Positions 1,904 through 40,354 of a DNA stretch of 64,000 nt are shown in pieces (positions within the stretch are counted from its first letter, which is position 1; the number at the start of each line of letters is the position of its first letter). The notes below the pieces were generated by a model that worked only from the letters and a program-made list of their open reading frames with translations, was not told where the DNA came from and searched no databases. The position numbers and the translations under genes are program-made. The stretch comes from Winogradskyella sp. PG-2 (lineage in GTDB: Bacteria > Bacteroidota > Bacteroidia > Flavobacteriales > Flavobacteriaceae). The stretch is from positions 2,540,001 through 2,604,000 of the forward strand of contig NZ_AP014583.1 in NCBI RefSeq assembly GCF_000828715.1. The letters run 5' to 3'.

Positions 1904-1944
1904 AGTTATTGAATAGAGCCAATACAATTTTTAATTATTGCTAA

Positions 1945-2170
1945 CGCCCACTGTGTATGGCGTAGTGAGGCGCGCCTCACGGAAAGCCATTGTTGCGCCT
2001 GATTAGCTATATACGCTGTTGTGTGTAGTATCGTTCGGAGTTCTCGTAGACTCGACTAAATATATATAAAATTGGCGAGGTGCGACAAACAGTGGGCGTT
2101 GGTATGTAATTAGTAGAAGGGCAGCGTTTGGAAAACGCGATTCTACGTGCCGTAGGCAATTACATACCAA
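1945..2170. repeat. R226 unit copy A (extra site plus 72-bp mini-cassette)
   Basis: First of 13 full copies. It begins CGCCCACTGT and ends ACATACCAA, inserted between AA and C of the array junction TTGCTAA|C. It carries the GTGAGGCGCGCCTCAC palindrome. A private change gives GCTATATACG where other copies read GCTATACACG. Confidence 0.9.
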
Positions 2171-2356
2171 CGTTTTTGTGTATGGCTCGTTGCGTGTAAA
2201 TTATAAAATTATTTTCGGATTAAGCACAAGCCAGATTTTTAAATTTTACTATTCATCTTTTTTATTGGAAATCGTCAAAATTTAAAAATTTGGCGACTAT
2301 CCAAATATGCTATAACTTCGATTAAGCAACTGAATAGCTATGAGTTATATACTGTG
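2171..2356 (-). other. attC-like cassette junction S1 (185-bp class)
   Basis: The site lies between R226 copy A and cassette 1. The left arm reads GTGTATGGC and the right arm AGTTATATAC, with internal CGTCAAAATTT facing AAAATTTGGCG. It ends at G|TT before GTTACCCACC. Confidence 0.65.
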
Positions 2357-2551
2357 TTACCCACCGTTTTTTACAGAAGTTTTTTAGTTTTTCGTAATGT
2401 ATAAACTTCAATTATTTCGGTGATTAGTAAATGCAATATATCAATTTTTCTTCTCTCTTTCTCATTGAGAATTTTTAGCCAACTAAAAAAAATGAAATAT
2501 TTTGTGCTTTTTTAAAGTAAGTATATACTAATAGAGTATAGCGAATAATTT

Positions 2552-3037
2552 ATGACACAAGAAAACAAATTTGTAGAAGTAATTCAAGATAATGAAGGAA
2601 TCCTATACAAAATGACAAGTTTATATGCCAATGATAAGGATGACCAAAAGGACTTATATCAAGATATCGTATATCAATTATGGAAATCCTTTAGCACATT
2701 TAAAGGTGATGCAAAACTAAGTACTTGGATATATCGCATCGCACTAAATACATCGCTGTTATTTCTGAAGAATAAGAAAAGAAAAGGATACAAAACATCT
2801 CTGGATGGAATAGTATTGATAAATGAAAATTACGATCCAGTTCTTGAAGAACGCCTTAAAATATTATACGCTCACATTAGAGAACTCGGTGAGGTTGATA
2901 AAGGAATTGTCTTTCTTTATTTAGAGGGAAAAAAGTATGAAGAAATATCGAAAATAACAGGTATATCCACTAGTAATATTGGAACTCGTATGGCAAGGAT
3001 AAAAGAAAAATTGAACAAACAGATAATAAAAAAATAA
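2552..3037 (+). CDS. ECF-type sigma-70 factor
   Basis: This 161-residue protein has sigma region 2 at about residues 12-80 (DLYQDIVYQLWKSF, then STWIYRIALNTS) and region 4 at about 105-155 (YEEISKITGISTSNIGTRMARIKEKL in outline). There is no region 1 or 3, as in extracytoplasmic-function sigma factors. It would direct RNA polymerase to a small regulon. The next gene begins four bases after its stop and encodes a membrane protein, the usual place for an anti-sigma partner. A sigma factor as cassette cargo is unusual because it could rewire expression on arrival. Confidence 0.88.
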   Translation: MTQENKFVEVIQDNEGILYKMTSLYANDKDDQKDLYQDIVYQLWKSFSTFKGDAKLSTWIYRIALNTSLLFLKNKKRKGYKTSLDGIVLINENYDPVLEERLKILYAHIRELGEVDKGIVFLYLEGKKYEEISKITGISTSNIGTRMARIKEKLNKQIIKK

Positions 3038-3041
3038 ACTT

Positions 3042-3650
3042 ATGGAATTCGAAGAAATGCAAGCGACTTGGACTCAAATGAGCAACCAACTGAATAATCA
3101 AAAAAAACTAACGGATAAGTTAATTATGGAAATGACCAAAGAACGTTATAAAAATAAAATAGGTATACTGTCAAAGTATGAAGGTATAGGTGCTGTCATT
3201 TGTTTTATAATGGCTATTCTGCTTATTTCGCGGTTTTCTGAGTTGAATACTTGGTATTTATTGGTCTCTGGTATTTTTACTGTTTGTTATTTGATTGTAC
3301 TTCCATTAATCGTGTTGCGTTCCATTAGAAGTATGAATAGTATAGACTTAACGAATAATAATTATAAGGAAACCCTTATAGCTTATGCTAAAAAGAAAAG
3401 ACAATTCCTGTTAACACAAAAAGTTGGTGTTTACCTTAATTTTATTCTTTTGGTGGTTAGTTTACCAGTTATTATTAAAATATTTAAAGGAAAGGACATA
3501 TTTATTACAAATATCAATTTGGTTTACTGGTACATTCCTGTAATGGCAGTTTTTCTAATTTTATTTTCTATTTGGGGATATGGCAAATATAAAAACGTAA
3601 CGGATTCTGCATCTCAAATCCTGGAAGAGTTTGAAGATACATCTTCTTAA
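3042..3650 (+). CDS. Four-helix membrane protein, possible anti-sigma partner
   Basis: The 202-residue protein starts four bases after the sigma gene. Residues 1-40 are soluble and charged (EEMQATWTQMSNQL), then come membrane segments near 45-65, 68-88, 129-149 and 163-183. The N-terminal layout resembles proteins that follow ECF sigma genes in Bacteroidetes. No zinc-binding HxxxCxxC motif is visible, so it is not a classical ZAS anti-sigma factor. The regulatory role is inferred only from position and topology. Confidence 0.6.
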   Translation: MEFEEMQATWTQMSNQLNNQKKLTDKLIMEMTKERYKNKIGILSKYEGIGAVICFIMAILLISRFSELNTWYLLVSGIFTVCYLIVLPLIVLRSIRSMNSIDLTNNNYKETLIAYAKKKRQFLLTQKVGVYLNFILLVVSLPVIIKIFKGKDIFITNINLVYWYIPVMAVFLILFSIWGYGKYKNVTDSASQILEEFEDTSS

Positions 3651-3748
3651 ATACTAATCAAAGACCAATTTTATTAAAAATTCAATTACAATTTTATGCT
3701 GAAAATTTCAGCAAGCAATACTCTATACTAATTGTAAAAATTAAAACT

Positions 3749-5146
3749 ATGAAAACAAGCATAATCACAATTTGCCTATTTTTTCTAACATTAACGGCAC
3801 TTTCACAGAATATCACAGGTATATGGAATGGTACTATTGAAGTTGATAAAGATACGAAATTCAATTTTATATTTAATATTGAAGAAGATGGAAAAACATA
3901 TCAAACTACAGTCGATATGCCAACACAAAGGGTCAATGGAATTAAAGCATTAAAGACATTAGTCACAGCCGATAGTTTAATAATAGACTTTTCAAATGTG
4001 GGAATGAAATATAGTGGGAAACTTAATGCCAATCGTACTTTAATTAACGGTAAATTAGTTGAAGGCTTAAATTTCTTTTCCCTAAATCTCTCAAGAAATT
4101 TGGTGTTAGAAACACCAAATGTGAATAGACCCCAAGAGCCTATAAGACCCTATTCCTATTTTGAAGAAAATATAAGTTTCACCAATAAGGATGCCAATAT
4201 AACGTTGGCTGGTACATTTACTCGTCCTAATGGGAGTAAAAAATATCCTGTAGCAATATTGATAAGTGGTAGCGGTCCGCAAGACAGAGACGAAACTATA
4301 TCAAAGCACAAACCTTTTTTGGTTTTGGCAGATTACCTTACTAAGCAAGGAATTGCCGTACTGCGCTATGACGATAGAGGATTTGGTGCATCAACGGGCA
4401 ATCATTCTAATGCAACTACTTACGATTTTGCTTTAGATGTTATTCGTGCTATGGATTATTTAAGAACAAGGGACGATGTTGATGCAAATAAAATTGGTTT
4501 GATAGGGCATAGTGAAGGTGGTATCATTGCTCCTTTAGTAGCCAATAAATCCAAAGATGTTGCTTTTATCATTTCTCTTGCTGGAACTGGAATTTCTGGA
4601 ACAGAACTCTCTGTCATTCAGTCCAAAACGATGCGTCCATTCCCTGTTCCTGATGAGGTAGTTTACGAAAAGGCAATTAGAGAAGCAATTGAAATTGCAA
4701 AACAGAATAAGGATGTTTCAGAAATAAAACCTGAATTAAAAGCACACTATAACGAAACTATTGCTCCCATACTCAAAAATCTTGGTGTGCCAGATGGTAA
4801 AATGAATGAAATTATTACGAGCTTGGTAGCGATGCGAACCACAAAATGGGTACGGTATTTTTATGATTATAATCCAGCAAATGAATACGAAAAAGTGAAT
4901 TGTCCTGTCCTTTCATTAAATGGTAGCTTAGACACACAAGTAGAAGCAAAGATTAATCAAGATGGTCTGCGCGAAGCATTAATCAAAGGAAAAAATAAAG
5001 ATTATCAAATCATTGAAATCGAAGGTCTTAATCATTTGTTCCAAAACGCTAAAACTGGTAAAATGGATGAATATTCTGATATTGAAGAGACGTTCTCTCC
5101 AAAAGTTCTCAATTTAATTTCTGATTGGATTTTGAAACGTATATAA
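3749..5146 (+). CDS. Secreted alpha/beta hydrolase (S9/dienelactone-hydrolase-like)
   Basis: A signal peptide (residues 1-20, ending ALSQ) leads into an N-terminal beta-rich domain of about 120 residues and then an alpha/beta hydrolase. The nucleophile elbow GHSEGG lies near residue 252, a candidate acid Asp in NGSLDTQ near 393, and the histidine in GLNHLF near 428. Upstream, GSGPQDRDE and YDDRGFG match the oxyanion and strand motifs of the family. The substrate is unknown; esters or peptides are possible. It is the last gene of the sigma cassette and a likely target of that regulator. Stop and cassette end are about 95 bases apart. Confidence 0.85.
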   Translation: MKTSIITICLFFLTLTALSQNITGIWNGTIEVDKDTKFNFIFNIEEDGKTYQTTVDMPTQRVNGIKALKTLVTADSLIIDFSNVGMKYSGKLNANRTLINGKLVEGLNFFSLNLSRNLVLETPNVNRPQEPIRPYSYFEENISFTNKDANITLAGTFTRPNGSKKYPVAILISGSGPQDRDETISKHKPFLVLADYLTKQGIAVLRYDDRGFGASTGNHSNATTYDFALDVIRAMDYLRTRDDVDANKIGLIGHSEGGIIAPLVANKSKDVAFIISLAGTGISGTELSVIQSKTMRPFPVPDEVVYEKAIREAIEIAKQNKDVSEIKPELKAHYNETIAPILKNLGVPDGKMNEIITSLVAMRTTKWVRYFYDYNPANEYEKVNCPVLSLNGSLDTQVEAKINQDGLREALIKGKNKDYQIIEIEGLNHLFQNAKTGKMDEYSDIEETFSPKVLNLISDWILKRI

Positions 5147-5242
5147 CAGGAAATGAAGTTTTTTGCATTGTATTGGTGCTAATAGTATCCAAAAATCATA
5201 AGATAATTGGTGTGCAGGATGTTTTTTTGAAATGGTGGGTAA

Positions 5243-5465
5243 CCACTGTGTATGGCGTAGTGAGGCGCGCCTCACGGAAAGCCATTGTTGCGCCTGATTA
5301 GCTATACACGCTGTTGTGTGTAGTATCGTTCGGAGTTCTCGTAGACTCGACTAAATATACATAAAATTGGCGAGGTGCGACAAACAGTGGGCGTTGGTAT
5401 GTAATTAGTAGAAGGGCAGCGTTTGTAAAACGCGATTCTACGTGCCGCAGGCAATTACATACCAA
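5243..5465. repeat. R226 unit copy B, short left end
   Basis: This copy lacks three bases at its left boundary: the junction reads GGTAACCACTGTG instead of AACGCCCACTGTG. Otherwise it matches the family, with the GCGTTTGTAAAACGC and GCCGCAGG variants. Confidence 0.9.
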
Positions 5466-5585
5466 CGGTTTGTGTATGGTTAGTTGCGTGTTTAAGCAAC
5501 TAAGTTAACAAACAAATCACAGATAGAAAATTCCAGCGGAATTTTCGTAAGTCCGCAGTGACCTAGCAATTAATTATACACGGTG
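5466..5585 (-). other. attC-like cassette junction S2 (120-bp class)
   Basis: The arms GTGTATGGTTAGTTGC and GCAATTAATTATACAC pair with one G-T step. The apical hairpin is GAAAATTCC facing GGAATTTTC. Confidence 0.7.
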
Positions 5586-5842
5586 TTGGCAATAGTTTTT
5601 ATTATCTCATTACCATTTAAATAAAAGTTCAGATTCTGTCCAGTTTTTTTTTCCAATTATCTATCGTTTGTTCTTTAAAGAGAATATATTTATTAATGAA
5701 CTTACATTTAAAATCGAAAAATATTTACAAATTACATATGTTTTTATACATTCAAGCCATTGAATTGTTACCGTAACATCATCAATTTCTCTATTTATAA
5801 AAACTTATAAGATTTAAATCAAACTAAAAATCACCTTTTATT

Positions 5843-6589
5843 TTAAATTAAATACCCTACAACATTGATCCATCCATGTAAAATTATTGGAAAAACAAGA
5901 CTACCTGTTGCAAGACGTATATACATTAATAATAGACCATAAAAACCAGGTAAGAAATCTCCCCAAATGATAACGGTATTCCAATTAGAATCTACATGGA
6001 TAACATGAGTAAAATAGAACATACCAATCATAATGATAGCTCCCCAACTCCAATTTACTTTAGCAAATTTCCATTTTTGAAGGAAAGCTCTATCTAGTAT
6101 TAAAAGCATAATACCACGATAATAGATTTCTTCTTCAATGCCCGGCATACTTAACTGATAGAGCCAGTCACTTACATCTCCTTTTTTTATTCCGCTAAAA
6201 TAAAACCAAGCCAGACCAACTGCAATTAACGCAGTGAATATGGTTGCAACTATGCCTGCTTTTTTAGCAATCCCGTTTTGTGATAGTCTTAAACCCCATT
6301 CCCCATGCTTTTTTGGAAAAAGTATGTAAGAGCAGAAAATTAAAAATATAATGGCTGCAATTTTGCCTTCCCAATTATACCTACCTGGAATAAGGTCTGG
6401 ATATGTGCCATCCACACCCAAAAAAAGAACAATTTTATGAAGTAGAAATATTCCAACTGCTAAGCCTATCCATTTCCAATTCACTTTGTTTCTGTAAATA
6501 ATAATAGGGATGAGTATAAAAGCTATAAAAATTACCCATTCAACTACAACCTGATTGTAAATTCCAAAATTCATCTTGTCGCTAATCAA
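5843..6589 (-). CDS. CPBP-family intramembrane metalloprotease
   Basis: This 248-residue protein has about seven membrane segments. The CPBP/Abi signature EEEIYYRG is at residues 152-159, with glutamates that act as metal ligand and catalyst and Arg158. A second motif, FTHVIH, is at 193-198 with a candidate ligand histidine. The family includes Rce1-type proteases and bacteriocin-immunity proteins, so it could be processing or self-protection cargo. It shares a cassette with a LytTR regulator located upstream on the same strand, 109 bp away. Confidence 0.82.
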   Translation of the reverse strand: MISDKMNFGIYNQVVVEWVIFIAFILIPIIIYRNKVNWKWIGLAVGIFLLHKIVLFLGVDGTYPDLIPGRYNWEGKIAAIIFLIFCSYILFPKKHGEWGLRLSQNGIAKKAGIVATIFTALIAVGLAWFYFSGIKKGDVSDWLYQLSMPGIEEEIYYRGIMLLILDRAFLQKWKFAKVNWSWGAIIMIGMFYFTHVIHVDSNWNTVIIWGDFLPGFYGLLLMYIRLATGSLVFPIILHGWINVVGYLI

Positions 6590-6698
6590 AAATTATTTGA
6601 TTTTGCAAATAAATTAAGCATATGATTATTGACCAAACAATTGTGATAGAACTGAAATTTTTTATTTGAAAATGAACCAATTGGGCTAAAATTGAAAC

Positions 6699-7511
6699 TC
6701 AGGGACGATTTTGAAGGTATTTTTTGACTGCAAGAAAATGTTTTGGTGAGATTGGTATAGGTTCATTTAATGATATCATAGATATAATTCCTTTTCTAGT
6801 ATTTCCTGAAATAGATTCGATTTTTAATGGATTTACTAAATAGGATCTATGAATATGCTGAGCAGATGGGATATTAATAATTAATTTTGACAATGTCATA
6901 CGAATCATTTTTTTTGTTAAGCTTCCATTATCTATATAATAAATATCTACATAATTAGATTGTGCCCTTGCCATAATAAAATCTTCTTCAAAAAAACTTA
7001 ATTCTTCATCTTGATTATTACCTTTTATATTTACTATTGGTTGATTTTTTAATCTTAAAGGTTTTATTACAATTTTACTAAACCTGAAACGCAAATAAAT
7101 CCAGAGTGGCATAAATATTGGGATGAACGGTGCTCCAAATTCTTTCGTCCATTGCAACATGTAATTAGTGTTTATGCTTAAGTCATTAACAATATAGGTG
7201 TTGTAGAAATACGAAAATATGGAAATGAAAAATAAACCTATTATTAGTATGATTAATTCCTGAAAAAGAAACCATTTTCCGTTACTTTTTTTAAACCAAT
7301 ATTCTTCAAAAAAATGTAGAATTAAAATTGGTATTATAACACACAATCCATAACCAAAAAGTTTTAAATTTTTATATGGGATGTCATTAGAGTAAGAATC
7401 AAAGGGTTCTAAGAAAATTAAAATAAAAACGATAATTATTGCTAAAATACAACTTAAAAAAAAAGTATTTAACCAACTTGCAGTATAAGCAATTGCTCTA
7501 TTCTGTAACAT
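6699..7511 (-). CDS. Membrane-anchored LytTR transcriptional regulator
   Basis: The 270-residue protein has four predicted membrane helices (about 15-33, 50-66, 83-103 and 127-140). A C-terminal LytTR DNA-binding domain spans about residues 165-265, recognisable from FIMARAQSNYVDIYY, HRSYLVNPLKIESI and PISPKHFLAVKKYL. There is no receiver domain, so it may sense a membrane signal directly. It precedes the CPBP gene in the direction of transcription and could control it, although the gap of 109 bp leaves room for a separate promoter. Confidence 0.85.
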   Translation of the reverse strand: MLQNRAIAYTASWLNTFFLSCILAIIIVFILIFLEPFDSYSNDIPYKNLKLFGYGLCVIIPILILHFFEEYWFKKSNGKWFLFQELIILIIGLFFISIFSYFYNTYIVNDLSINTNYMLQWTKEFGAPFIPIFMPLWIYLRFRFSKIVIKPLRLKNQPIVNIKGNNQDEELSFFEEDFIMARAQSNYVDIYYIDNGSLTKKMIRMTLSKLIINIPSAQHIHRSYLVNPLKIESISGNTRKGIISMISLNEPIPISPKHFLAVKKYLQNRP

Positions 7512-7610
7512 AAAGTTTTTATAATTAGAACTAATGCAAATTTAGAGCAAATGTTTTTATGAACACCATAAAATAATTACTTTACAAATTTTGATGAGTT
7601 AACTATGTTC

Positions 7611-8911
7611 GTTAAGGGACATCGTTTACACAAGTTAAAGATTAGGGTTTACCCTAAATTAGTTTCTAACCTTGTTGATTGTTCCTTCTTTCTTAATTGT
7701 TTTTCATTAAAGTACCCTAAAAGTACATTTCTATAAAATACTTTCCAAATTCCATTACCAAGCTCTTCAATTGCTACATATTTACCTTTAAGCGCAGCAG
7801 TTAAATATACCCAATAATATGATTTCCATCTTATGGCTCCATTTTTAGTTACCTTAAGAACTTTATATGTTGCATCGTAATCAAAATGAGGTATTCTTTC
7901 TGTAAAAGCTCTTGTAGAAAAGTCATGTATATCTGCAGGTGTTTTCATGTTTAAAGCTTCATGTGGTCTTACATGATTATATTCTTTTACAAAGTGATTT
8001 AATCTTCTTTGTTGTGCTTTTAAATCATATGCTGAAGGTTTAGCACAAGCGGCTTTTAAATCTCTATGCATACATTCGTATCTTCCGTTTTGTTCTGGGT
8101 GAGCAGGGTCAGAAAATACAGGGCTAATTCCAAGCTCAATAAACCAATAGGAAAGTTGTGTAAAACGTTGGATAGCTCTTACCGAACCAAATGGACTACC
8201 ATTGTCTGTGTGTATTTGTTTAGGGACTCCATATTTCCTAAAAACCTTTGTAAACTCTGCTTTGGCAGACTTTAGATTTTCTTTATAATGTCCTTTAGCA
8301 GTAAATAGAAATCTGCTTTTAGAGTCTGCAATAGTTAGTGGGTGGCAGTATATTTTATTGCCCATTAAAAACTTTCCTTTATAGTCAGCACTCCATACTT
8401 CGTTACAGTTTTTAGGATCAAAAATAGGGTATACTGGTTTGATTCTTCTCATCCTTTTTTTAGCACATACTAAACCGTTTTTCTTAAGAATATTATGGAC
8501 CGTAACCACAGATGGGATTTGTTTTTCTGTAAATTCTTTAAACAATAATATTCTTATTTTTTTTGCTCCCCAACGAGGATATTTTTCTTTTAGCTTTAAG
8601 ATACCTTCTACGATATTTAGAGGTGTTGCATTAGGATGCTTTGAAGGGGCTCTAGAGTGTTCTCTAAGACCTTCATAACCTTGATTTTCGAACCTATTAA
8701 TTAACTTATAAGCAGTAGGACGAGAGATTTCAAAGTTTTTGCATAATTCTGTAATGGTATACTTGCCTGTTCTCCATTCACAGATAAATTCAATTTTTTG
8801 TTCCATAGTTGTCGTTTCTTTCCAAGGCATAATTTCCGATTTTAATCAGAAATTTAGTCTTTAAAAAGTGTAAACGATGTCCCTTTAACTTTGTAAACGA
8901 TGTCTCTTTAC
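7611..8911 (-). mobile_element. IS481-family insertion sequence with doubled right terminus
   Basis: The left end is GTTAAGGGACATCGTTTACAC (7611-7631) and the right end is its near-perfect inverse at 8868-8889. A second, diverged copy of the right end follows immediately at 8890-8911 (TGTAAACGATGTCTCTTTAC). The element sits where the left portion of an R226 unit should be; only the final AATTACATACCAA of that unit survives at 8919-8931. Confidence 0.82.
7649..8830 (-). CDS. IS481-family transposase
   Basis: The 393-residue protein is intact. Residues 1-60 form a helix-turn-helix (YTITELCKNFEISRPTAYKLINRF). A second wHTH follows, then the rve-type catalytic core with Asp in VWSADYKGKF, Asp in IHTDNGSPFG, and Glu in HPEQNGRYECMHRDLK. 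The conserved tail includes EYNHVRPHEALNMKTP. It lies entirely between the inverted repeats and its reading frame is undamaged, so the element may still be active. Confidence 0.92.
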   Translation of the reverse strand: MPWKETTTMEQKIEFICEWRTGKYTITELCKNFEISRPTAYKLINRFENQGYEGLREHSRAPSKHPNATPLNIVEGILKLKEKYPRWGAKKIRILLFKEFTEKQIPSVVTVHNILKKNGLVCAKKRMRRIKPVYPIFDPKNCNEVWSADYKGKFLMGNKIYCHPLTIADSKSRFLFTAKGHYKENLKSAKAEFTKVFRKYGVPKQIHTDNGSPFGSVRAIQRFTQLSYWFIELGISPVFSDPAHPEQNGRYECMHRDLKAACAKPSAYDLKAQQRRLNHFVKEYNHVRPHEALNMKTPADIHDFSTRAFTERIPHFDYDATYKVLKVTKNGAIRWKSYYWVYLTAALKGKYVAIEELGNGIWKVFYRNVLLGYFNEKQLRKKEQSTRLETNLG

Positions 8912-8918
8912 CATACCA

Positions 8919-8931
8919 AATTACATACCAA
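8919..8931. repeat. R226 remnant
   Basis: Thirteen bases, AATTACATACCAA, equal the right end of an R226 unit and sit between IS481 and junction S3. The rest of the unit is gone, presumably by IS-associated deletion. Confidence 0.7.
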
Positions 8932-9054
8932 CGTCTCGGTGTATGGATAGTTGCGTGTTTAAGCAACTAAATTAGTAAACAAATATGAACCTGAGAAAAT
9001 TCCGAAGGAATTTTCCAAATAAGGACTTGCCAAAGCAATTAATTATACACGGTG
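8932..9054 (-). other. attC-like cassette junction S3 (120-bp class)
   Basis: The arms are GTGTATGGATAGTTGC and GCAATTAATTATACAC. The apical hairpin GAAAATTCC-GAA-GGAATTTTC is shared with S13 and S24. It ends at G|TT before GTTATACAC. Confidence 0.7.
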
Positions 9055-9567: not shown

Positions 9568-9724
9568 GAACTTTATGTATCGCGTTTATATGATGATTAG
9601 TAGCGGACAATTATACGTTTTATTTTCCGCAACAACAATATATTAAAAAGTGAGTAAAAATTAATATAATGTCGAGCTACAGTTTTTTAATATAGATATT
9701 ACATCACACTGAAATTATTCTTTA

Positions 9725-10063: not shown

Positions 10064-10078
10064 TGAACTTGTGTATAA

Positions 10079-32379: not shown

Positions 32380-32412
32380 TATGTTGTTTTCAGTTTTTTA
32401 AATTATGCCTAA

Positions 32413-32638
32413 CGCCCACTGTGTATGGCGTAGTGAGGCGCGCCTCACGGAAAGCTATTGTTGCGCCTGATTAGCTATACACGCTGTTGTGTGTAGTATC
32501 GTTCGGAGTTCTCGTAGACTCGACTAAATATACATAAAATTAGCGAGGTGCGACAAACAGTGGGCGTTGGTATGTAATTAGTAGAAGGGCAGCGTTTGGA
32601 AAACGCGATTCTACGTGCCGTAGGCAATTACATACCAA
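32413..32638. repeat. R226 unit copy J
   Basis: Full-length copy at TATGCCTAA|C, with the AAAGCTATTG and TTAGCGAGG variants it shares with copy K. Confidence 0.9.
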
Positions 32639-32758
32639 CGATTAGGCTATGGGTATTTGCTTAAATCACTAAGATAGCAAAAAGGCACAAAGTGAGGAAT
32701 ATTCGAAGAATATTCCGATTGGTACTTACTAATCTCAAGCAATTACCTATAGCTATTG
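32639..32758 (-). other. attC-like cassette junction S21 (120-bp class, divergent arms)
   Basis: The outer arms are GGCTATGGGTA and TTACCTATAGCTA. The apical hairpin is GGAATATTCGAAGAATATTCC, entirely different in sequence from its siblings but fully paired. Confidence 0.66.
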
Positions 32759-33852
32759 TTGTAAAACGTTTTAATTCTCCGTTTCTGGTGGTGTTGAAAT
32801 TGAGTAAATTTTAAGTCTTCTGTTAAAAAATATTTAAGATTATTAAATTATTTAATTTTCATTAATTTTATTGTACTCTAATTATTCTAAAACTTATTTA
32901 TGTCTAAAGTGTAGTTTAAAAATGGATAATAACCTTTTAATAAATCTATTAACAAGGTCAATTTTATTCTCTTTTTTTAGAATAACAAAAATTTCATCTG
33001 AAGTTATAAACCAATTTTTTTTTGTTTTTTAAAAATTTTAGTTTCAACTTTAAATTTAGTTGCTCTAACATAATTTTTGCTAATCATTATTTTTAATGAA
33101 CCAAATGAATCCATTCTATGCTGCAATTCATCTAATGTATGATTTGATGGGTTCTTAATTGTAGTTATATCAATTAAATCCTTTCTACTAAAATAATTTT
33201 GTTTGCCTTGTTGAGGACTTCCTTGAACCTTATTAATAAAATCAATTATAACTTTATTTAAATTTAATGAGGCTAGTTTCGCCTTTTCAAATTTAATTTT
33301 CCTTAAGTTTTTGTTGTCAATTTGAATTGATTCTGACAATAAAATAGGTCCATGATCTATTTTTTCTGTCATATAATGATAAGAATAGCCTGTTTCTTTT
33401 TCTCTATTATAGAGTGTCCAAGGTGTTACTAGCCAACCTCTATAAGAAGGTAATATACCATTATGATTATTTAAACCAGATTTAAAAACATTGAGTAATT
33501 CGATACTAAATATTTGATCACAGCCAAAAGAAAATGCATAATCTGGTTGAATTTTGTTTTTTAAAAATTTAATAAATTTCGGATGATTAATATTGTTGTT
33601 TTCCGGAATAATTATTTTTACTCCCCTTAGACTACAAAACGTTTGAATATTCCAAAATATTTTTCGGGTTAATTTGGACTTATTAGAGCTTGTATCGCAA
33701 ATTAGTAAAACTTTTATTTTATTTATTTTTGATGCTATGCGAATTGCTTCATTAGTTAAGATGATACTTTTTATACTAGCATAATTGCCAAAAATTACTA
33801 CGGAATTTTTTTTTGAATTTAATATCATTAACTAGAGTCAAATGTTTTACAA
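32759..33852 (-). mobile_element. Cassette 21 (formyltransferase-like)
   Basis: The ends are GTTGTAAAAC and GTTTTACAAC. The 245 bp between the left end and the gene stop (32759-33003) are very AT-rich and show no gene. Confidence 0.68.
33004..33828 (-). CDS. Formyltransferase-fold protein (methionyl-tRNA formyltransferase-like)
   Basis: The protein has 274 residues. The hydrolase/formyltransferase signature NNHNGILPSYRG is near residue 140, and the later catalytic stretch EKIDHGPILLS carries the conserved Asp-His region. The N-terminal Rossmann-like half begins NSVVIFGNYASIKS. The C-terminal OB domain typical of Fmt is missing. It is more likely a sugar-nucleotide or amine formyltransferase, or a hydrolase, than a housekeeping enzyme. 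It uses 10-formyl-tetrahydrofolate by family analogy. Confidence 0.78.
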   Translation of the reverse strand: MILNSKKNSVVIFGNYASIKSIILTNEAIRIASKINKIKVLLICDTSSNKSKLTRKIFWNIQTFCSLRGVKIIIPENNNINHPKFIKFLKNKIQPDYAFSFGCDQIFSIELLNVFKSGLNNHNGILPSYRGWLVTPWTLYNREKETGYSYHYMTEKIDHGPILLSESIQIDNKNLRKIKFEKAKLASLNLNKVIIDFINKVQGSPQQGKQNYFSRKDLIDITTIKNPSNHTLDELQHRMDSFGSLKIMISKNYVRATKFKVETKIFKKQKKIGL

Positions 33853-33970
33853 CGGTTGTGTATAAAAATAGTGGCGGTTTAGGACCACAAACTTTTCAAT
33901 TTAGATCATAGTTAATTATTGTTTCTGTCTTTTGTATTGGTAGATTCTTCGCCATTATTTTTATACGTTG
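33853..33970 (-). other. attC-like cassette junction S22 (120-bp class), partly coding
   Basis: The outer arms TTGTGTATAAAAATAGTGGCG and CGCCATTATTTTTATACG pair closely. The next gene reads about 60 bp into the right arm. Confidence 0.68.
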
Positions 33971-34610
33971 TTGGGCGCAGTAATTCTCTTTCTACACCAC
34001 TAATACCGGTTCTTGCCCATACCGCATCATCCTCATTCATGGCTTTGTCGGGTCTGAAATAGAATTCCAAAAATTCTTTGCTTTCAGTAGGGAATTGACG
34101 ATAATCCCAAGCCCCGTCAGTTGATGAAAGAATTCCCGATGTTAATTCCGCAATTGAAGCACTGATGATTCCATACCCAATATTTATAATTCCAGGTTGA
34201 CCTGCTGAGCGTCTAAAAGACCACATTCGGTCTAGTTTTTTAGACTTTTCTAACTTTAGGTCAATATTACCGATTGTTTTGTGACCCTCTAGAAAGTCAG
34301 TTAGTTTCCACCAAGGGTCGTCAGAGTCGTCAGGGTCTACCACTGATTCACAGTAAGCATCAGTACCACCCGCAATTCCTTTTATTGTAAACCAAGCGTA
34401 TTCATTCTCTTTCCATTGAAATGTGTCCGATAATTCAATATCAAACATATATTTCTCATCTTTATCACGAATAGTAACATTTAATTCAATCTCTTTTTCA
34501 ATTCCAACTGATTTTAGAAAAGAATGAATATGCTTTTGAGATAGACTTATTACTTGCCCAAAAGTTATTTCAGTCGATTCAACTGGTAATATGTCTATTG
34601 TAGTACTCAT
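33912..34610 (-). CDS. Unknown acidic protein whose C-terminus is encoded by the junction site
   Basis: The 232-residue soluble protein is acidic, with Trp-rich blocks (YAWFTIKGIAGGTDAY, SDDPWWKLTDFLEGH) resembling small immunity-type or DUF-type proteins. No family is assigned. The last 19 or so residues, from TYKNNGEEST onward, and the stop are encoded by S22, outside the cassette's own ends. A different downstream site would change the protein's tail. Confidence 0.66.
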   Translation of the reverse strand: MSTTIDILPVESTEITFGQVISLSQKHIHSFLKSVGIEKEIELNVTIRDKDEKYMFDIELSDTFQWKENEYAWFTIKGIAGGTDAYCESVVDPDDSDDPWWKLTDFLEGHKTIGNIDLKLEKSKKLDRMWSFRRSAGQPGIINIGYGIISASIAELTSGILSSTDGAWDYRQFPTESKEFLEFYFRPDKAMNEDDAVWARTGISGVERELLRPTTYKNNGEESTNTKDRNNN

Positions 34611-34630
34611 TTTTTACTTATTGCGCCCAA
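33971..34630 (-). mobile_element. Cassette 22 (unknown, immunity-like)
   Basis: The ends GTTGGGCGCA and TGCGCCCAAC are a perfect pair. The gene's 3' end runs into S22. Confidence 0.7.
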
Positions 34631-34856
34631 CGCCCACTGTGTATGGCGTAGTGAGGCGCGCCTCACGGAAAGCTATTGTTGCGCCTGATTAGCTATACAC
34701 GCTGTTGTGTGTAGTATCGTTCGGAGTTCTCGTAGACTCGACTAAATATACATAAAATTAGCGAGGTGCGACAAACAGTGGGCGTTGGTATGTAATTAGT
34801 AGAAGGGCAGCGTTTGGAAAACGCGATTCTACGTGCCGCAGGCAATTACATACCAA
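34631..34856. repeat. R226 unit copy K
   Basis: Full-length copy at GCGCCCAA|C. It shares AAAGCTATTG and TTAGCGAGG with copy J, suggesting a common recent source. Confidence 0.9.
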
Positions 34857-35041
34857 CGGTCTTGTGTATGAAACGTAGCGTTGCTTAAAAGTAGTATATT
34901 CTGGTTAAACAATGAGCCGAGTTTTTATATTTTGTGCTAATTTATCATTTTTAAAGCTTAAAAATCTAAAAAATTGGCGGAAACAGCAAGAAAACACAGA
35001 CATTTTGATAAGCCAAAACTAGCGATGTTTTATACATTGTG
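34857..35041 (-). other. attC-like cassette junction S23 (185-bp class)
   Basis: The arms are GTGTATGAAACGTAGCG and AGCGATGTTTTATACAT, close to S6 at the outside but divergent within. Confidence 0.66.
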
Positions 35042-35263
35042 TTGTGCGGTCGTTGTTTCTTATCCAGTATAATTTATCCGTTAGTTTTTATCCGTTAGTT
35101 TTTATCCGTGGACCTGATCCGTTTCGCCTCAAACCGGAACATAATCTTTGCGAAAATTCGTACGCTCTGTACCAGATTTATCCATCAAAAAAATACGATC
35201 TGTTTTAGCGATTAGTACCTTTTTTATTTTGAGTGATCACGAGTGCATTTTAATGACGCACAA
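35042..35263 (-). mobile_element. Cassette 23 (no gene)
   Basis: A 222-bp cassette with ends GTTGTGC and GCACAAC and no plausible reading frame. A short tandem of ATCCGTTAGTTTTT lies near 35076-35108. It may be a decayed cassette or may encode a small RNA. Confidence 0.58.
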
Positions 35264-35386
35264 CGGAATTGTGTATGGTTAGTTGCGTGGCTAAGCAACT
35301 AAATTAGTAAACAAATATGAACCTGAGAAAATTCCGAAGGAATTTTCCAAATAAGCACTTGCCAAAGCAATTAATTATACACGGTG
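35264..35386 (-). other. attC-like cassette junction S24 (120-bp class)
   Basis: The arms are GTGTATGGTTAGTTGC and GCAATTAATTATACAC. The apical hairpin GAAAATTCC-GAA-GGAATTTTC places it in the S3/S13 subfamily. Confidence 0.7.
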
Positions 35387-36433
35387 TTGTGCCCAGTTAT
35401 TTTAGTCGATACATCGTTTTATTTTTTTCTCCGATTTTTTCAAATAAACCGATTTCAGCTCCTTTTTTCAAATCTCTACTAGCTGTTGCAGAAGAAATAT
35501 CCTTAAAAATATCCATATAATCTTTTCTTGTAAATTCAGTTTTATTCAAGGAAATATAATATTCTAACCGGTCTTTTTCACTTAAAGTTCTATTATTGAA
35601 TTCTAATAATTGGCTTATTGAAATGTCAATTACGTTTAGCATATATTGGATAAATTTAGTTGATTTTCCAGATTTATCACTTTCAGCCAAGGCTTTATAA
35701 TATTTTTCTTGGTCGTTGCTAATTAAAGTTTCAAATGGTAGAAACTCAAATATTGGATATTTTTCCATTAAAATTAAAGTTTGCCATAATCGTCCCATTC
35801 TGCCATTTCCATCTAAAAAAGGATGTATGAATTCCATTTCGTAATGAAAAACACAACTTTTAATTAACTCAATTTCATCTGAATTTTTTAAATATTCAAA
35901 AAGGTCTTTCATTAAGTATGGCACATTTTCAAAAGGTGGTGCTAAATGCTCAACTTTAGAGCCTTTAACGATTCCTACACTTTGATTTCTATATTTGCCA
36001 GAATTTTCAATTAGATCTTCCATTAAGTTTTGATGTGCCTTTAAAAATGATTTTTCATTAGAAGGATTGTATTCTTCTAAATTTTCATAGATTTTAATAG
36101 CATTTAAAACTTCAAGAACATCTTTTTCAGGACCAATAACTCTTTTGTTTTCAAGAAGTGCTGTTATTTGTTCTTCCGTGAGTGTGTTTCCTTCTATTTT
36201 TAATGAAGAATGAATAGTTTTAATCCTATTTTGTTTTCTGAGTTTCGGTGAAGGTTTGTTTAATAAATTAGCATTTACTTCTCCTATTTTTTCAGAAATA
36301 GAAGTTATTAATTTTAAAATCGAAGATGTTATTTCGTAAGGTGGTTTCATTATGATACTATCATTTGATACTATCAAATATACATTCATTTCCTTTAATT
36401 ATGTAATAGAACGGATTTTTTAATTGGGCACAA
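35387..36433 (-). mobile_element. Cassette 24 (Fic, copy 2)
   Basis: Same ends as cassette 6 (GTTGTGCCCA/TGGGCACAAC), with about eight base changes that I could spot across 1047 bp. It is flanked by S24 and S25 rather than S6 and R226. Confidence 0.74.
35397..36389 (-). CDS. Fic-domain AMP transferase-like protein, copy 2
   Basis: The 330-residue protein differs from the copy at 15305-16297 at only two residues: Ser4 is Tyr here, and a Lys in EYLKKSDE is Asn. It keeps the intact HPFLDGNGRMGR catalytic motif, the SLKIEGN inhibitory motif and the C-terminal winged helix. The near identity of two copies 20 kb apart, with different flanking sites, argues for recent movement of this cassette. Both look functional. 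Confidence 0.9.
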   Translation of the reverse strand: MNVYLIVSNDSIIMKPPYEITSSILKLITSISEKIGEVNANLLNKPSPKLRKQNRIKTIHSSLKIEGNTLTEEQITALLENKRVIGPEKDVLEVLNAIKIYENLEEYNPSNEKSFLKAHQNLMEDLIENSGKYRNQSVGIVKGSKVEHLAPPFENVPYLMKDLFEYLKNSDEIELIKSCVFHYEMEFIHPFLDGNGRMGRLWQTLILMEKYPIFEFLPFETLISNDQEKYYKALAESDKSGKSTKFIQYMLNVIDISISQLLEFNNRTLSEKDRLEYYISLNKTEFTRKDYMDIFKDISSATASRDLKKGAEIGLFEKIGEKNKTMYRLK

Positions 36434-36554
36434 CGGTCTCGTATAGCCGTCAGTTACGGGTTTAAAGTTACTGTTTTTCGGTTAAGCACTGACGTTAGTA
36501 ATTCCGAGTGGATTCGGACGTAGTCGAATCCGCCGTAATTGCGGTTATACATTG
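36434..36554 (-). other. attC-like cassette junction S25 (120-bp class, GC-richer arms)
   Basis: The arms CGTATAGCCGTCAGTTACGG and CCGTAATTGCGGTTATAC pair. TTAC/GTAA replaces the common TTGC/GCAA. The apical region has GGATTCGGAC and GTCGAATCC. S27 is nearly the same. Confidence 0.7.
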
Positions 36555-37027
36555 TTGTGCTTAGTGTTTTATTCATCGTGATTGTCCAATTTCTAGTTTT
36601 TATTCGGTCTGATTTTTTTCCAGTCCCAATATTTAGAATACAATTCATCGTGCAGCATTTCAGTATTTTCAGCTAACTCACTTGTTTTATCTACAAAACT
36701 AATTTCAGTCCATTTCCCAAGATTTTCATCTGGGTCCGAAGTTCCGTCAATAATATTTAGCAGTTCAAATAAAACTCCGGCAGAGTTATCTGCTAAAACT
36801 TTTCTCAATGCACCTTTTAAAATAGGGTCATTTTTTAATTTTTCCAGAGAAGATTTTTCCATTTCGGTTAAACCTCCATTTGGTGGATAAGTCAAAAAAT
36901 CAGTCGAGTTTCCTTTTTCCAATTCGTCAGCTGCGTATTCTGCATTTTCCTCAATTTTTTGTTGAAGAAAAAGCATTAAAGTATTGATATTATATTCTGA
37001 TAGTTTCATTTTTTCCATTAAGCACAA
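36555..37027 (-). mobile_element. Cassette 25 (small unknown protein)
   Basis: The ends GTTGTGCTTA and TAAGCACAAC are a perfect pair. Confidence 0.7.
36593..37018 (-). CDS. Unknown acidic helical protein
   Basis: The start at 37018 gives 141 residues (EKMKLSEYNINTLMLFLQQK...). The protein is acidic and mostly helical, without a signal peptide or membrane segment, and contains YAADELEKGN and WDWKKIRPNKN. Such compact acidic proteins in cassettes may be immunity or antitoxin proteins, but no family is recognised. The longer frame from 37063 adds the R226-encoded MRRASLRHTQWAL peptide and is not credible. Confidence 0.6.
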   Translation of the reverse strand: MEKMKLSEYNINTLMLFLQQKIEENAEYAADELEKGNSTDFLTYPPNGGLTEMEKSSLEKLKNDPILKGALRKVLADNSAGVLFELLNIIDGTSDPDENLGKWTEISFVDKTSELAENTEMLHDELYSKYWDWKKIRPNKN

Positions 37028-37253
37028 CGCCCACTGTGTATGGCGTAGTGAGGCGCGCCTCACGGAAAGCCATTGTTGCGCCTGATTAGCTATACACGCT
37101 GTTGTGTGTAGTATCGTTCGGAGTTCTCGTAGACTCGACTAAATATACATAAAATTGGCGAGGTGCAACAAACAGTGGGCGTTGGTATGTAATTAGTAGA
37201 AGGGCAGCGTTTGGAAAACGCGATTCTACGTGCCGTAGGCAATTACATACCAA
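37028..37253. repeat. R226 unit copy L
   Basis: Full-length copy at AGCACAA|C, with the private change GGTGCAACAAAC. Confidence 0.9.
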
Positions 37254-37294
37254 CGGTTTGTGTAAAATGCGTTTTAATGCATTTTTACACATTG
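37254..37294 (-). other. attC-like cassette junction S26 (41-bp class)
   Basis: A minimal hairpin differing from S12 by one base (ACACATTG against ACACCTTG). Confidence 0.66.
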
Positions 37295-37951
37295 TTAGAG
37301 TTCGTTATTGTTTACAATTTATATTTTTTATTAGTCAATAAGTGTGCTGCCCTTTTTTGTATTTTAAGAAAAGTACTTTCTTCTTTAAAACGCAAGATGA
37401 TATTCCTAGTCAAATCAGGATGTAGAAGCGCTATATTTTGTGCTTTTTTATTTCCATTTAACAAAATATTATCTATTAACTTTTCATTGAACCCGTTTTC
37501 TTCCAGATCAATCCGGTATGACTCTGAGGGCTGGTCAACAAGCCCAGGACCTTTTAAAATCCTAGGATCTTCGTAGTGAGGTAGTTTCCACATTAGGTCT
37601 TCTTCAAGCTTTTCCACAATTTCTAACCTGTCTCGACTTTCAAAAACAGTATGGATTTTTTCAAATTTCAAGTCCATACTTTTGGTTTTAGAACAATACA
37701 CTTCCAGTGCGTGGCGTACTTCGATATGATAGTATCCGTTTACATCAAGCGTGGGTGTCCACCACATAGCTATAAATTGATTCCGTAATTTACTATATAG
37801 TTTTAGTTGAAAATCAGTGTCCACCCATTCAATGTTTTCTTGGGTTATTTCATCTATTTCGCAAAATTCATTGTACAATACTTGCCAATCAGGATATACT
37901 CTTAAAGGTTGGTGTTTATACATTAAATAGTTTATTTAGAATGAACTCTAA
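37295..37951 (-). mobile_element. Cassette 26 (203-residue unknown, copy 2)
   Basis: Same perfect ends as cassette 12, GTTAGAGTTC and GAACTCTAAC. Confidence 0.72.
37312..37923 (-). CDS. Unknown 203-residue protein, copy 2
   Basis: Homologue of 23059-23670 with nine substitutions, for example VRHALE for VRPALE and KLIDN for KLMNN. It keeps the same length and no family is recognised. Because substitutions outnumber those between the two Fic copies, this pair probably separated earlier or arrived independently. Confidence 0.72.
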   Translation of the reverse strand: MYKHQPLRVYPDWQVLYNEFCEIDEITQENIEWVDTDFQLKLYSKLRNQFIAMWWTPTLDVNGYYHIEVRHALEVYCSKTKSMDLKFEKIHTVFESRDRLEIVEKLEEDLMWKLPHYEDPRILKGPGLVDQPSESYRIDLEENGFNEKLIDNILLNGNKKAQNIALLHPDLTRNIILRFKEESTFLKIQKRAAHLLTNKKYKL

Positions 37952-38072
37952 CGGACTCGTATAACCGTCAGTTACGGGTTTAAAGTTACTGTTTTTCGGT
38001 TGATCACTGACGCTCGCAATTCCGAGTGGATTCGGACGTAGTCGAATCCGCCGTAATTGCGGTTATACATTG
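37952..38072 (-). other. attC-like cassette junction S27 (120-bp class)
   Basis: Sister of S25. The arms are CGTATAACCGTCAGTTACGG and CCGTAATTGCGGTTATAC. It is found beside a duplicated cassette, as is S25. Confidence 0.7.
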
Positions 38073-38684
38073 TTGGCAAATCGTTTTTTAATTCATTCAT
38101 GGCATTAATAAACTTAATCCGTAAAAATATAGTCCGCCAATTATTAAAATTCCGACAAAATTTATTTTCAATTTCGTGTTTTTTAAATCAGTCCAAATCG
38201 ATTTAAATTTTTCTTTTTCCGACACAATAACTTTCGTGTTTGCAAGAAAGTCGCCAATTCGTCTTTCAGGATTTATTAGTCCAACAATAACTTCTAATGG
38301 CCAAGCAACACAAATGGTTAAATTCCGTACAAAGCATTGTAATTCATTCGCTGGTTTATTCGTTTTTCGGTCAATAACTTGAAAACCTAAAATCCGTTTT
38401 GCTGGACTTTTTGCATTGAAAAAGTCTTTATTTAAATAAATAAAAAAAGGAATAAAAACTAAAACTATTCCAATTCCGTTATTCAGACTGTCTTTCATTA
38501 ATGCTCCTAATCCAAAAATTAGAAATCCCAATGGAACAATTAAAAGACACATAATACAATGGTCTAAAAACATACTTAAAATTCGGTTAATTCTTGGGTT
38601 ATTATTCGCAACTTTAGAAATTTCTCCGACTATTATTCCATCGCTATTGTTATTTGTTTCTGTCATTTATCAAATGTTTGCCAA
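38073..38684 (-). mobile_element. Cassette 27 (RDD protein)
   Basis: The ends are GTTGGCAAA and TTTGCCAAC, the same as cassette 29. Confidence 0.68.
38097..38666 (-). CDS. RDD-family membrane protein
   Basis: The 189-residue protein has the RDD pattern Arg (NRILSMFLDH) and Asp in the first membrane helix. Three or four membrane segments follow (about 27-47, 58-78 and a C-terminal helix). The motif SPAKRILGFQVIDRKTNKPAN sits between helices. RDD proteins are thought to be transporters, some exchanging Na+/H+, but most are uncharacterised. Confidence 0.84.
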   Translation of the reverse strand: MTETNNNSDGIIVGEISKVANNNPRINRILSMFLDHCIMCLLIVPLGFLIFGLGALMKDSLNNGIGIVLVFIPFFIYLNKDFFNAKSPAKRILGFQVIDRKTNKPANELQCFVRNLTICVAWPLEVIVGLINPERRIGDFLANTKVIVSEKEKFKSIWTDLKNTKLKINFVGILIIGGLYFYGLSLLMP

Positions 38685-38910
38685 CGCCCACTGTGTATGG
38701 CGTAGTGAGGCGCGCCTCACGGAAAGCCATTGTTGCGCCTGATTAGCTATACACGCTGTTGTGTGTAGTATCGTTCGGAGTTCTCGTAGACTCTACTAAA
38801 TATACATAAAATTGGCGAGGTGCGACAAACAGTGGGCGTTGGTATGTAATTAGTAGAAGGGCAGCGTTTGTAAAACGCGATTCTACGTGCCGCAGGCAAT
38901 TACATACCAA
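38685..38910. repeat. R226 unit copy M
   Basis: Full-length copy at TTTGCCAA|C. It has the private change GACTCTACTAAA for GACTCGACTAAA, and the GCGTTTGTAAAACGC and GCCGCAGG variants. Confidence 0.9.
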
Positions 38911-39031
38911 CGTTTAAGCTATGGTTTCGTTACGGAATGACACGCAGTGTTATTCCGGTTAAGCACTAAAGATAGCAAAAGTGCAGGAATTTTCCAGCGG
39001 AAAATTCCCCCGTAATGAATTATAGCTGTTG
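38911..39031 (-). other. attC-like cassette junction S28 (120-bp class)
   Basis: The outer arms are AGCTATGGTTTCGTTACGG and CCGTAATGAATTATAGCT. The apical hairpin is GGAATTTTCC-AGC-GGAAAATTCC, a different sequence that is still paired. Confidence 0.7.
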
Positions 39032-39269
39032 TTAGCGACAGTGATTTATATTATTTATACACCATTAGCCGCTCCGCTATTCAGTCCAGCGTAGTTAAGC
39101 TGAAGAGCGACGCAGATACCAACGGCACAAATAGGGCAGACGCGGAACAAGTCCAAAGTCAAACGTAGTTTTTATAATTCCAGTTTTGCAGTTTTATCTT
39201 GCTTAAAAATCAAAAAAAAATCGCTGCGCGAGAAGGTTGGGAAAGTGTGCGAAAGTACATTGTCGCTAA
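39032..39269 (-). mobile_element. Cassette 28 (no gene)
   Basis: A 238-bp cassette with perfect ends GTTAGCGACA and TGTCGCTAAC and no credible gene. Internal ACCAACGGCACAAATAGGGC resembles the start of a junction arm, so two junctions may have fused with loss of the gene between them. Confidence 0.58.
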
Positions 39270-39495
39270 CGCCCACTGTGTATGGCGTAGTGAGGCGCGC
39301 CTCACGGAAAGCCATTGTTGCGCCTGATTAGCTATACACGCTGTTGTGTGTAGTATCGTTCGGAGTTCTCGTAGACTCGACTAAATATACATAAAATTAG
39401 CGAGGTGCGACAAACAGTGGGCGTTGGTATGTAATTAGTAGAAGGGCAGCGTTTGGAAAACGCGATTCTACGTGCCGCAGGCAATTACATACCAA
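39270..39495. repeat. R226 unit copy N
   Basis: Last full-length copy, at TCGCTAA|C, with the TTAGCGAGG and GCCGCAGG variants. Confidence 0.9.
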
Positions 39496-39614
39496 CGGAC
39501 TTGGCTATGAGTAGTTGCGTGGGTTAGCACTTAACTTAGCAAGTACGTACCAAACTGAAAATCCTCGTGGATTTTCAGAAGTAGGCGAGAACAAGCAATT
39601 ACTTATAGCCATTG
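39496..39614 (-). other. attC-like cassette junction S29 (120-bp class)
   Basis: The arms GGCTATGAGTAGTTGCG and AGCAATTACTTATAGCC pair fully. The apical hairpin is GAAAATCC-TCGT-GGATTTTC. Confidence 0.7.
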
Positions 39615-40225
39615 TTGGCAAATCGTTTTTATATTATAATAGTTTGTTCATTTTCCGTTCAATTTTTTTAATAAGATTTAAGCTTAATACATCATTCACG
39701 TATTCAACTTTTCCTTTTTTATCAATTATTATATTGTACGGATAATAAGGGATTTTGAATTTGTCAATCAATTTACCATCTGGCACTACTGTAAAATCAA
39801 GCTTGGTTGTTTCTAAAAACTTAATTAATGAATTTTTATCGTTCCAAGTGACAGCAAAAAACTCTACCGATTTATCTTTGAATTTCATCTTTAACGCATT
39901 TAAATCAGGAAATTCTTTAACACAAGGTTTGCATTGAATAAACCAAAAATTCATTACAATAATTTTCCTTTTAAAGATTCTAAAGTATGCTTATTACCAT
40001 TGATGTCCTCAAAGCTTAATTCATTCAATATAGAACCATCTATTTGCTTTCTTAATTCTTTTTTTTCTTTTTCAATGGCTTTATATTTCTCATTTAATTC
40101 CTTTTGTGATATTGATTTTTTCTCTTGACTAAAAGTTTTCAGTGAGACTAAAGCCAATATTATAAGAATTGAGGTTTTAAACTTCATATTTTAATTTTAT
40201 TTAGAGATTCTCAAATGTTTGCCAA
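39615..40225 (-). mobile_element. Cassette 29 (broken TlpA-like gene), right-hand limit of the array
   Basis: The ends are GTTGGCAAA and TTTGCCAAC. The sequence to its right (CCGCACTATATACATCTG) looks like the start of a further junction arm that has no partner, so the array ends here. Confidence 0.66.
39634..40187 (-). pseudogene. Secreted TlpA/ResA-like thioredoxin, split by a frameshift
   Basis: The upstream part (40187-39954) has a signal peptide (SILIILALVSLKTFSQ), a charged helix, and the start of a thioredoxin fold (FEDINGNKHTLESLKGK). The downstream part (39954-39634) continues the same fold with NFWFIQCKPC, carrying the redox CxxC, then VTWNDKNSLIKF. One more A in the run at 39963-39966 would fuse them. 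As read, the stop and the next ATG overlap in TAATG, so re-initiation could make a second fragment. It would belong to the periplasmic thiol reductases if intact. Confidence 0.78.
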
Positions 40226-40354
40226 CCGCACTATATACATCTGTAAATTTATATAATTTTAGTAAAATTCAAACTTTAGATCGTTTTATGTTTTGATGGC
40301 AACTAGCACTATGTTAATATAGGAAGAGTAATTAATATCAACTTTTTTATCAAC

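Follow-up and report, generated by a model that had tools for sequence, protein, structure and literature searches.

Here we describe an array of gene cassettes in a 64,000-nucleotide stretch of the genome of Winogradskyella sp. PG-2 (GCF_000828715.1, NZ_AP014583.1, positions 2,540,001-2,604,000 of the forward strand), referred to below as the window, whose own numbering is used for coordinates unless a genome position is named. Between about 2.1 kb and 40226, the window is tiled by segments with GTTR at the start and YAAC at the end, and the array extends leftward beyond the window. A first-pass annotation, which had read this region as an integron-like array of 29 segments spanning 1934..40226, placed the right end correctly; its left start at 1934 did not hold, as sites and segments continue to the left, past an insertion sequence. 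Our count is 28 segments (35041-35264 being identified by eye and by site matches), plus one broken by an insertion sequence, with 13 near-full copies of a 226-bp element kept apart. In 25 of 27 segments, the longest open reading frame (ORF) is encoded by the minus strand; the array therefore reads leftwards, and the site belonging to a segment is the one on its left. A Pfam match was obtained for 16 of the 20 cargo ORFs scanned, including Fic, MutS domain V, GNAT, RidA-like, OsmC, cyclase and hydrolase domains, DUFs and others.

The two ends of each segment form an inverted repeat that is private to that segment, as had been proposed. Across 27 gene segments (one entered one base off in this count), matching bases occur at each of positions 1-9 in 25-27 segments and at position 10 in 19; agreement fails at position 11 (1/27) and resumes at positions 12, 13 and 14 (22, 24 and 18 of 27). 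Neighbouring ends across a site, by comparison, agree at positions 8-10 in only 2 of 36 cases. Identical 9-mers at the two ends link 20 segments into one chain from 15294 to 40226, in which two links each span two cassettes, against a longest chain of 1-3 in 20 Markov-simulated sequences and of 2 in 23 kb of non-array sequence. Exceptions to the rule are segment 28706-29484, whose ends agree over 7 bases only, segment 14299-14885, with one mismatch between its ends, and the 226-bp element.

At its right end the array is preceded by the sequence before the first GTT (40227..40260), with no adjoining recombinase. The first cassette, thioredoxin-like, occupies 39497..40226 (site 39497-39613, segment 39614-40226; site and segment are given in this order below, and all cassettes are read on the minus strand). 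It is followed by 38912..39270 (38912-39030, 39031-39270), without a clear gene, by an RDD cassette at 37953..38685 (37953-38071, 38072-38685) and by 37255..37952, in which a short site (37255-37293) accompanies a second copy (37294-37952) of segment 23041-23699. Next come 36435..37028 (36435-36553, 36554-37028), the second of two Fic cassettes at 35265..36434 (35265-35385, 35386-36434), a small cassette without a clear gene at 34858..35264 (34858-35040, 35041-35264), 33854..34631 (33854-33969, 33970-34631) and a formyltransferase-like cassette at 32640..33853 (32640-32757, 32758-33853). The cassette at 29485..32413 (29485-29602, 29603-32413) carries four ORFs; to its left lie 28588..29484 (28588-28705, 28706-29484), 27944..28587 (27944-28061, 28062-28587) and a DUF6090 cassette at 27059..27943 (27059-27177, 27178-27943). 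The adjoining three are 26286..27058 (26286-26402, 26403-27058), with copies in another array and in another species; 25176..26285 (25176-25294, 25295-26285), absent between the same neighbours in the other array; and a GNAT cassette at 24414..25175 (24414-24597, 24598-25175), of which another array holds an identical copy.

Further left, 23700..24413 (23700-23819, 23820-24413) is followed by the first copy of the short-site cassette at 23002..23699 (site 23002-23040, about 40 bp; segment 23041-23699), by 22167..23001 (22167-22283, 22284-23001), by a metallophosphoesterase cassette at 20707..22166 (20707-20826, 20827-22166), by 19582..20480 (19582-19725, a partial model match; 19726-20480), by a MutS domain V cassette at 17469..19355 (17469-17585, 17586-19355) and by 16569..17242 (16569-16686, 16687-17242). 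The first Fic copy stands at 15112..16342 (15112-15293, 15294-16342), beyond it a thioesterase-like cassette at 14118..14885 (a 181-bp site; segment 14299-14885), a cassette at 10306..14117 (10306-10427, 10428-14117) encoding 1165 amino acids with propeller and cyclase domains, and a DUF6933 cassette at 8933..10079 (8933-9053, 9054-10079). In the cassette at 5467..8932 (site 5467-5584, segment from 5585), with a Rce1-like ORF at 5843-6589, the segment is interrupted by an insertion sequence (transposase 7649-8830). The leftmost gene cassette, 2172..5243 (2172-2355, 2356-5243), has its genes on the plus strand: a sigma factor-like gene and a membrane protein gene, both recognised by eye, and a hydrolase with a Pfam match.

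Interspersed among the gene cassettes on the minus strand is the 226-bp cassette, which is non-coding and has two strong hairpins (-75.9 kcal/mol as RNA). Its near-full copies in the window lie at 1946..2171, 5244-5466, 10080-10305, 14886-15111, 16343-16568, 17243-17468, 19356-19581, 20481-20706, 32414-32639, 34632-34857, 37029-37254, 38686-38911 and 39271-39496. In the stretches of this genome that were read, 51 near-full copies, 97-100% identical and in one orientation, are spread over all three of the large arrays described below, and matches of 90-92% were found in one other genome of the genus (G551).

On the minus strand, a site consists of AAC, three bases, an arm (e.g. GTGTAT-A-ATTA-A-TTGC), a long variable part, a second arm, about five bases and GTT. 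We aligned and modelled 21 of the 27 long sites, omitting six of odd length. RNAalifold recovers the same stem unaided, with double changes in 8 of 12 pairs across the 21 sites. In the stem as we specified it, 91.8% of cells are paired, compared with 74.5% in shuffles and 23-42% in slid versions, and double changes number 39, compared with 9.8 in shuffles; none of 500 shuffles reaches either value. Judged by covariation, the sites fold as single-strand hairpins in which R and L boxes can be recognised. A.C mismatches recur at set positions, and some sites hold one extra base, so that the folded strand is asymmetric; asymmetry of the folded strand is likewise a feature of classical attC sites. 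Two sites, at 22999-23043 and 37252-37296, are about 40 bp long, with the stem kept and almost no loop; they sit on the copies of one cassette.

The core of the sites is GTTR in 57 of 57 (of 61 sites in all, four without clean AAC/GTT edges being dropped), whereas just 2 of 57 R'' boxes, 0 of 57 R' boxes and, in other genera, 7 of 145 cases read GTTRRRY. The earlier statement that the first bases of a cassette pair with R'' of its own attC holds. The private ends recur in other genera. At 28 of the 34 site-bearing recombinase loci introduced below, the array side holds 153 chained segments, compared with 19 on the opposite side. Statistics taken from chains of at least three give a repeat length of 9 or 10 bases in 145 of 145 segments and none longer; seeds of 9 bases fix the lower bound of this length, and with seeds of 7, 113 of 118 ends measure 9-10, again with none longer. 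Position 11 from the cassette start is A in 145 of 145, with C opposite in 128. Within the array, the R stem across a site is hardly paired beyond the core, which implies that the full stem would arise only when the own ends of a cassette meet, i.e. in an excised circle. The private R stem follows the logic of the classical R box, but it is longer and stricter.

A new covariance model built from the window's sites, a check that the first-pass annotation had suggested, returned 109 matches in the 3.8-Mb genome at an E-value of 0.01, a lower bound given that 150 of 4727 candidates were scored. Most of these fall into three large arrays: one of about 98 kb that ends at recombinase L002, the array of the window, of about 60 kb, and one of about 16 kb that ends at recombinase L004. 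The recombinase gene of the L004 array (locus L008) diverges from the cassettes, an arrangement shared with intI of classical integrons, and that of the L002 array (locus L009) runs in the direction of the cassettes. At the window array, neither a recombinase nor a relic of one was found in the stretches read, and the sequence before its first cassette resembles, by eye, the attI of divergent heads. For same-orientation heads we took the score of the strongest palindrome within the 45 bases that precede the first GTT, using 23 of 27 such heads, with first segments chosen by a rule that includes A at position 11. The median score is 10, compared with 4 in 460 controls; 14 of the 23 heads exceed the 95% point of the controls (7, with a control maximum of 10), and the palindrome arm ends 3-7 bases before the GTT in 19 of 23. 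This palindrome is a putative attI in many same-orientation heads.

The head recombinase is a tyrosine recombinase, XerA/IntI-like, that lacks the IntI-specific domain. The first-pass annotation had suggested a search of the flanking genome for a tyrosine recombinase with the extra helix of IntI; tyrosine recombinases do head the two other arrays, but without the IntI-specific domain. The best family model for these proteins is NF040815 (XerA, 'site-specific tyrosine recombinase/integron integrase'), which L002 passes at 242.8 bits (cut-off 220) and L004 approaches from below at 199.2; the best score with an IntI model is 199.5, against a cut-off of 265, and no protein of this genome lies above the IntI cut-off. 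The 44-48 columns of the IntI insert are filled in 19 of 19 canonical IntI proteins, compared with 3 of 44 columns in head recombinases of other genera (n=40) and 7 of 48 in a second recombinase set. In these comparisons, 11 of 133 recombinase rows lacked a usable ORF (among them L180 of the IntI set); the tree covers 78 of 122 rows, and 25 of its 29 head rows were seen beside sites (all except L015, L034, L036 and L038). Foldseek gives XerA (5hxy) as the best match of the head recombinase. XerA is listed among dimer-resolution recombinases (PMC8138268); most recombinases described here differ from it in carrying at least 70 extra N-terminal residues and in standing at cassette arrays. The N-terminal domain resembles the DNA-binding domains of UvsW/XPB and may share the fold of the HARP/UvsW/XPB DNA-structure-binding domain. 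Three array-head recombinases (L148, L154 and L157; 272-305 residues) are without it.

Evidence of movement comes from a comparison of two arrays of this one genome. Segments 24598-25175 and 26403-27058 recur in the L002 array, identical over 578 and 656 bp, where they adjoin each other, joined exactly at AAC between two sites of differing sequence; in the window, the complete unit 25176-26285, site and segment, sits between them. The two arrays thus differ by exactly one cassette, a natural one-cassette indel. The first-pass annotation had named a fixed order, with neither gain nor loss, as what would speak against mobile cassettes; to that point the genome gives one answer, and it is for mobility. 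In the two pairs, the similarity of the left site is 1.00 and 0.98 and that of the right site 0.75 and 0.71; for the copy of segment 26403-27058 in another species, the values are 0.93 and 0.60, and chance pairs of sites have a median similarity of 0.68. Across these three comparisons, which involve two cassettes, it is the left site and not the right one that moves together with the segment. In the duplicate 23041/37294, furthermore, the 40-bp site is shared almost letter for letter. Fic homologues outside cassettes were also seen: L242, L243 and L244 (78-87%) have no GTT/AAC ends, possibly a trace of cassette formation.

The sites are common in the family. In large samples a limited number of candidates was scored per genome, so that all site counts are lower bounds. 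Of 120 genomes that sample the genera of Flavobacteriaceae, 107 have sites (among the other 13, ten genomes are no larger than 1.9 Mb), as do 39 of 119 genomes of an order sample. They are often absent from genus g121; in a sample of the phylum, 25 of 41 genomes of the family have sites and the 16 without are all g121. Recombinases like L002 and L004 occur in 85 of the 120 family genomes (E 1e-50), namely in 84 of 107 with sites and 1 of 13 without (Fisher p 8e-7). We then consider 40 recombinase loci from 35 genomes of other genera, picked mostly for room around the gene and covering at most 10 kb on each side: sites lie within 10 kb at 34 of them, and 198 of 199 sites are on one side, pointing away from the gene. 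At the other six, the contig ends 164-1026 bp after the gene. Among named loci of recombinase relatives, 13 of 80 carry sites, all 49 of which point away; these include Winogradskyella, Seonamhaeicola, Aequorivita, Algibacter, Flavobacterium, Algoriphagus, a Sphingobacteriales and a Bacteroidales genome. When private ends were searched for without a model, Rufibacter was added, and the 14 relatives outside Bacteroidota yielded chains of at most 1.

Across 395 genomes of the phylum, sites are present in 59 of 116 genomes with the recombinase and in 26 of 279 without it (odds ratio 10, p 2e-18), whereas for canonical IntI the figures are 23 of 106 with and 62 of 289 without (odds ratio 1.0). Canonical IntI occurs in 105 of the 395 (the wider GTDB phylum), with one genome in the window's class and none in its family; the former (G156), the sole genome of that class with canonical IntI above the cut-off, has one site match. 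At 15 canonical IntI loci, the site model found no sites. Seven phylum genomes (including G208 and G269, the latter with four site matches) have both sites and canonical IntI and no head-type recombinase (E 1e-60). Outside bacterial genomes, the virulent Polaribacter phage P12002L (L265 30009-39244) has several model matches among DNA methyltransferase and Mom-like genes, with its genes running against the sites. Of the phage sites read, the seven with a terminal GTT carry an A at position 11, as do the arrays described here; the phage sites differ from those of the window in being mostly short-looped, with weaker private ends (4-8 bases), and no recombinase is annotated in the phage record.

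Several further features of the window touch or flank the array. The insertion sequence at 865-1868, within the array, has a transposase split over two reading frames and is presumably IS30-like. That at 7605-8946, within a cassette, has 99.7% identical copies at genome positions 2340394 and 3269588, both of which lie in or beside arrays. Beside the right end of the array, 40400-40440 resembles, by eye, the 3' end of a tRNA gene, although ARAGORN finds no tRNA there; it is possible that this stretch is an island scar. A transfer-messenger RNA gene (tag GENNYALAA) at 51228-51620 is the only match listed in an Rfam scan of the window.

Taken together, we hold it very probable that the window shows part of a large chromosomal cassette array of a Bacteroidota integron-like system, mobilised by an XerA/IntI-like tyrosine recombinase. 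Anatomy, covariation, the linkage and polarity between recombinase and array, and one exact one-cassette indel support this, and the integron-like reading of the first-pass annotation is upheld. Could the window instead be an ordinary cluster of attC sites lacking integron-integrases (CALIN), derived from a classical integron whose canonical IntI is elsewhere or lost? The order R'', spacer, L'', loop, L', spacer, R' within the sites, the polarity and the lack of a local integrase would all suit a CALIN, as would the 23 of 85 site-bearing phylum genomes in which canonical IntI also occurs, including 7 that lack the other recombinase. Phage P12002L, too, has sites of this class, and one of its attC sites, which may or may not be among those found here, is reported to be recombined by IntI1 in E. 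coli (PMC9892861). We nevertheless consider a CALIN unlikely: neither this genome nor, among the 395, any of its family has IntI above the cut-off, sites and IntI show no association across the phylum or at IntI loci, the boxes hardly ever read GTTRRRY, and a different recombinase heads such arrays.

Two explanations dispense with a site-specific recombinase of this kind. Passive gene islands flanked by repeats could be reshuffled by homologous recombination between similar sites, with no dedicated enzyme, which the 51 copies of the 226-bp element would fit. The Fic cassettes point the same way: the two window copies are 99.3% alike yet have different, apparently swapped sites, and no clear sharing of sites is seen for the Fic cassettes from other species, observations that weigh against a strict linkage of site and segment. 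An island of this sort is very improbable, however, in view of an indel that joins exactly at AAC between two sites of differing sequence, of ends that are private to each cassette and compensated, and of sites that run away from one recombinase at 34 loci. Perfect inverted repeats at the segment ends could also suggest small transposons, one per segment, with a hairpin- or end-specific transposase that binds the repeats. But the repeats vary between segments, which makes them unreadable for an end-binding transposase, and the moved unit 25176-26285 includes a site on one side only, so that we give this explanation the least credence.

For the integron-like system, we infer the following working, including the strand used, the circle, the catalytic role of the recombinase and the part played by its N-terminal domain. 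A cassette would comprise a gene segment and the hairpin site at its 3' end. The recombinase at the heads of the other arrays would recognise the site as a folded single strand and cut at GTT, freeing a circular cassette whose R stem, about 10 bp long, is fully paired; this circle would then be inserted either at another site or at attI, which many same-orientation heads appear to carry as a palindrome. In those copies that have it, the N-terminal domain may grip the folded DNA. No recombinase accompanies the window array, which would depend on one acting in trans or represent a remnant.

Sedentary chromosomal integrons (IntI, attI and attC, as in the Vibrio superintegron) are alike in their head recombinase, attI-like site and hairpin sites, as well as in cassettes of mostly one gene with a 3' site in one orientation, in tens of cassettes and in mixed cargo. 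They differ from the present system in that the recombinase here is without the IntI-specific insert and mostly has an extra N-terminal domain, in that GTTR with a private R stem of 9-10 bp and mismatches at fixed places replaces GTTRRRY, and in that the putative attI here is often a palindrome of about 18-28 bp. With a CALIN the window array shares its sites without adjoining recombinase; here the sites belong to a different class, and a recombinase does head related arrays elsewhere in this genome. As far as sequence can tell, the system appears integron-like in working and anatomy, yet two defining features, the IntI domain and GTTRRRY, are missing, and the window array has no recombinase. 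The earlier question of a diverged integron or an analogous system is thereby sharpened: the sites go with an XerA/IntI-like recombinase and not with canonical IntI. We lean towards a second lineage of integrons, parallel to or older than IntI integrons, with an integrase that lacks the IntI insert and mostly bears a UvsW/XPB-like domain; we are similarly inclined to think that this domain may read folded single-stranded sites and that the self-complementary cassette ends pair fully only in the circle, and, with the same modest preference, that the system is a main gene-stockpiling platform of Flavobacteriaceae, reaching other orders of Bacteroidota.

IntI is what defines an integron, and few integrons have been reported from Bacteroidetes by surveys that rely on it; IntegronFinder 2.0 gives one complete Bacteroidetes integron (Salinibacter) besides those of Chlorobi and Ignavibacteriae (PMC9024848). 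Our literature search, whose scope was open publications, found no description of such a system. A gene-swapping system of Bacteroidota thus seems to have been overlooked so far. It is an integron-like platform with a non-IntI recombinase, widespread in Flavobacteriaceae, out of reach of IntI-based tools and probably also of those based on GTTRRRY, and the census of gene-capture systems in these bacteria would change with it. The platform provides a natural means of testing the purpose of the IntI domain, and its arrays are candidates for an older or independent origin of integron recombination.

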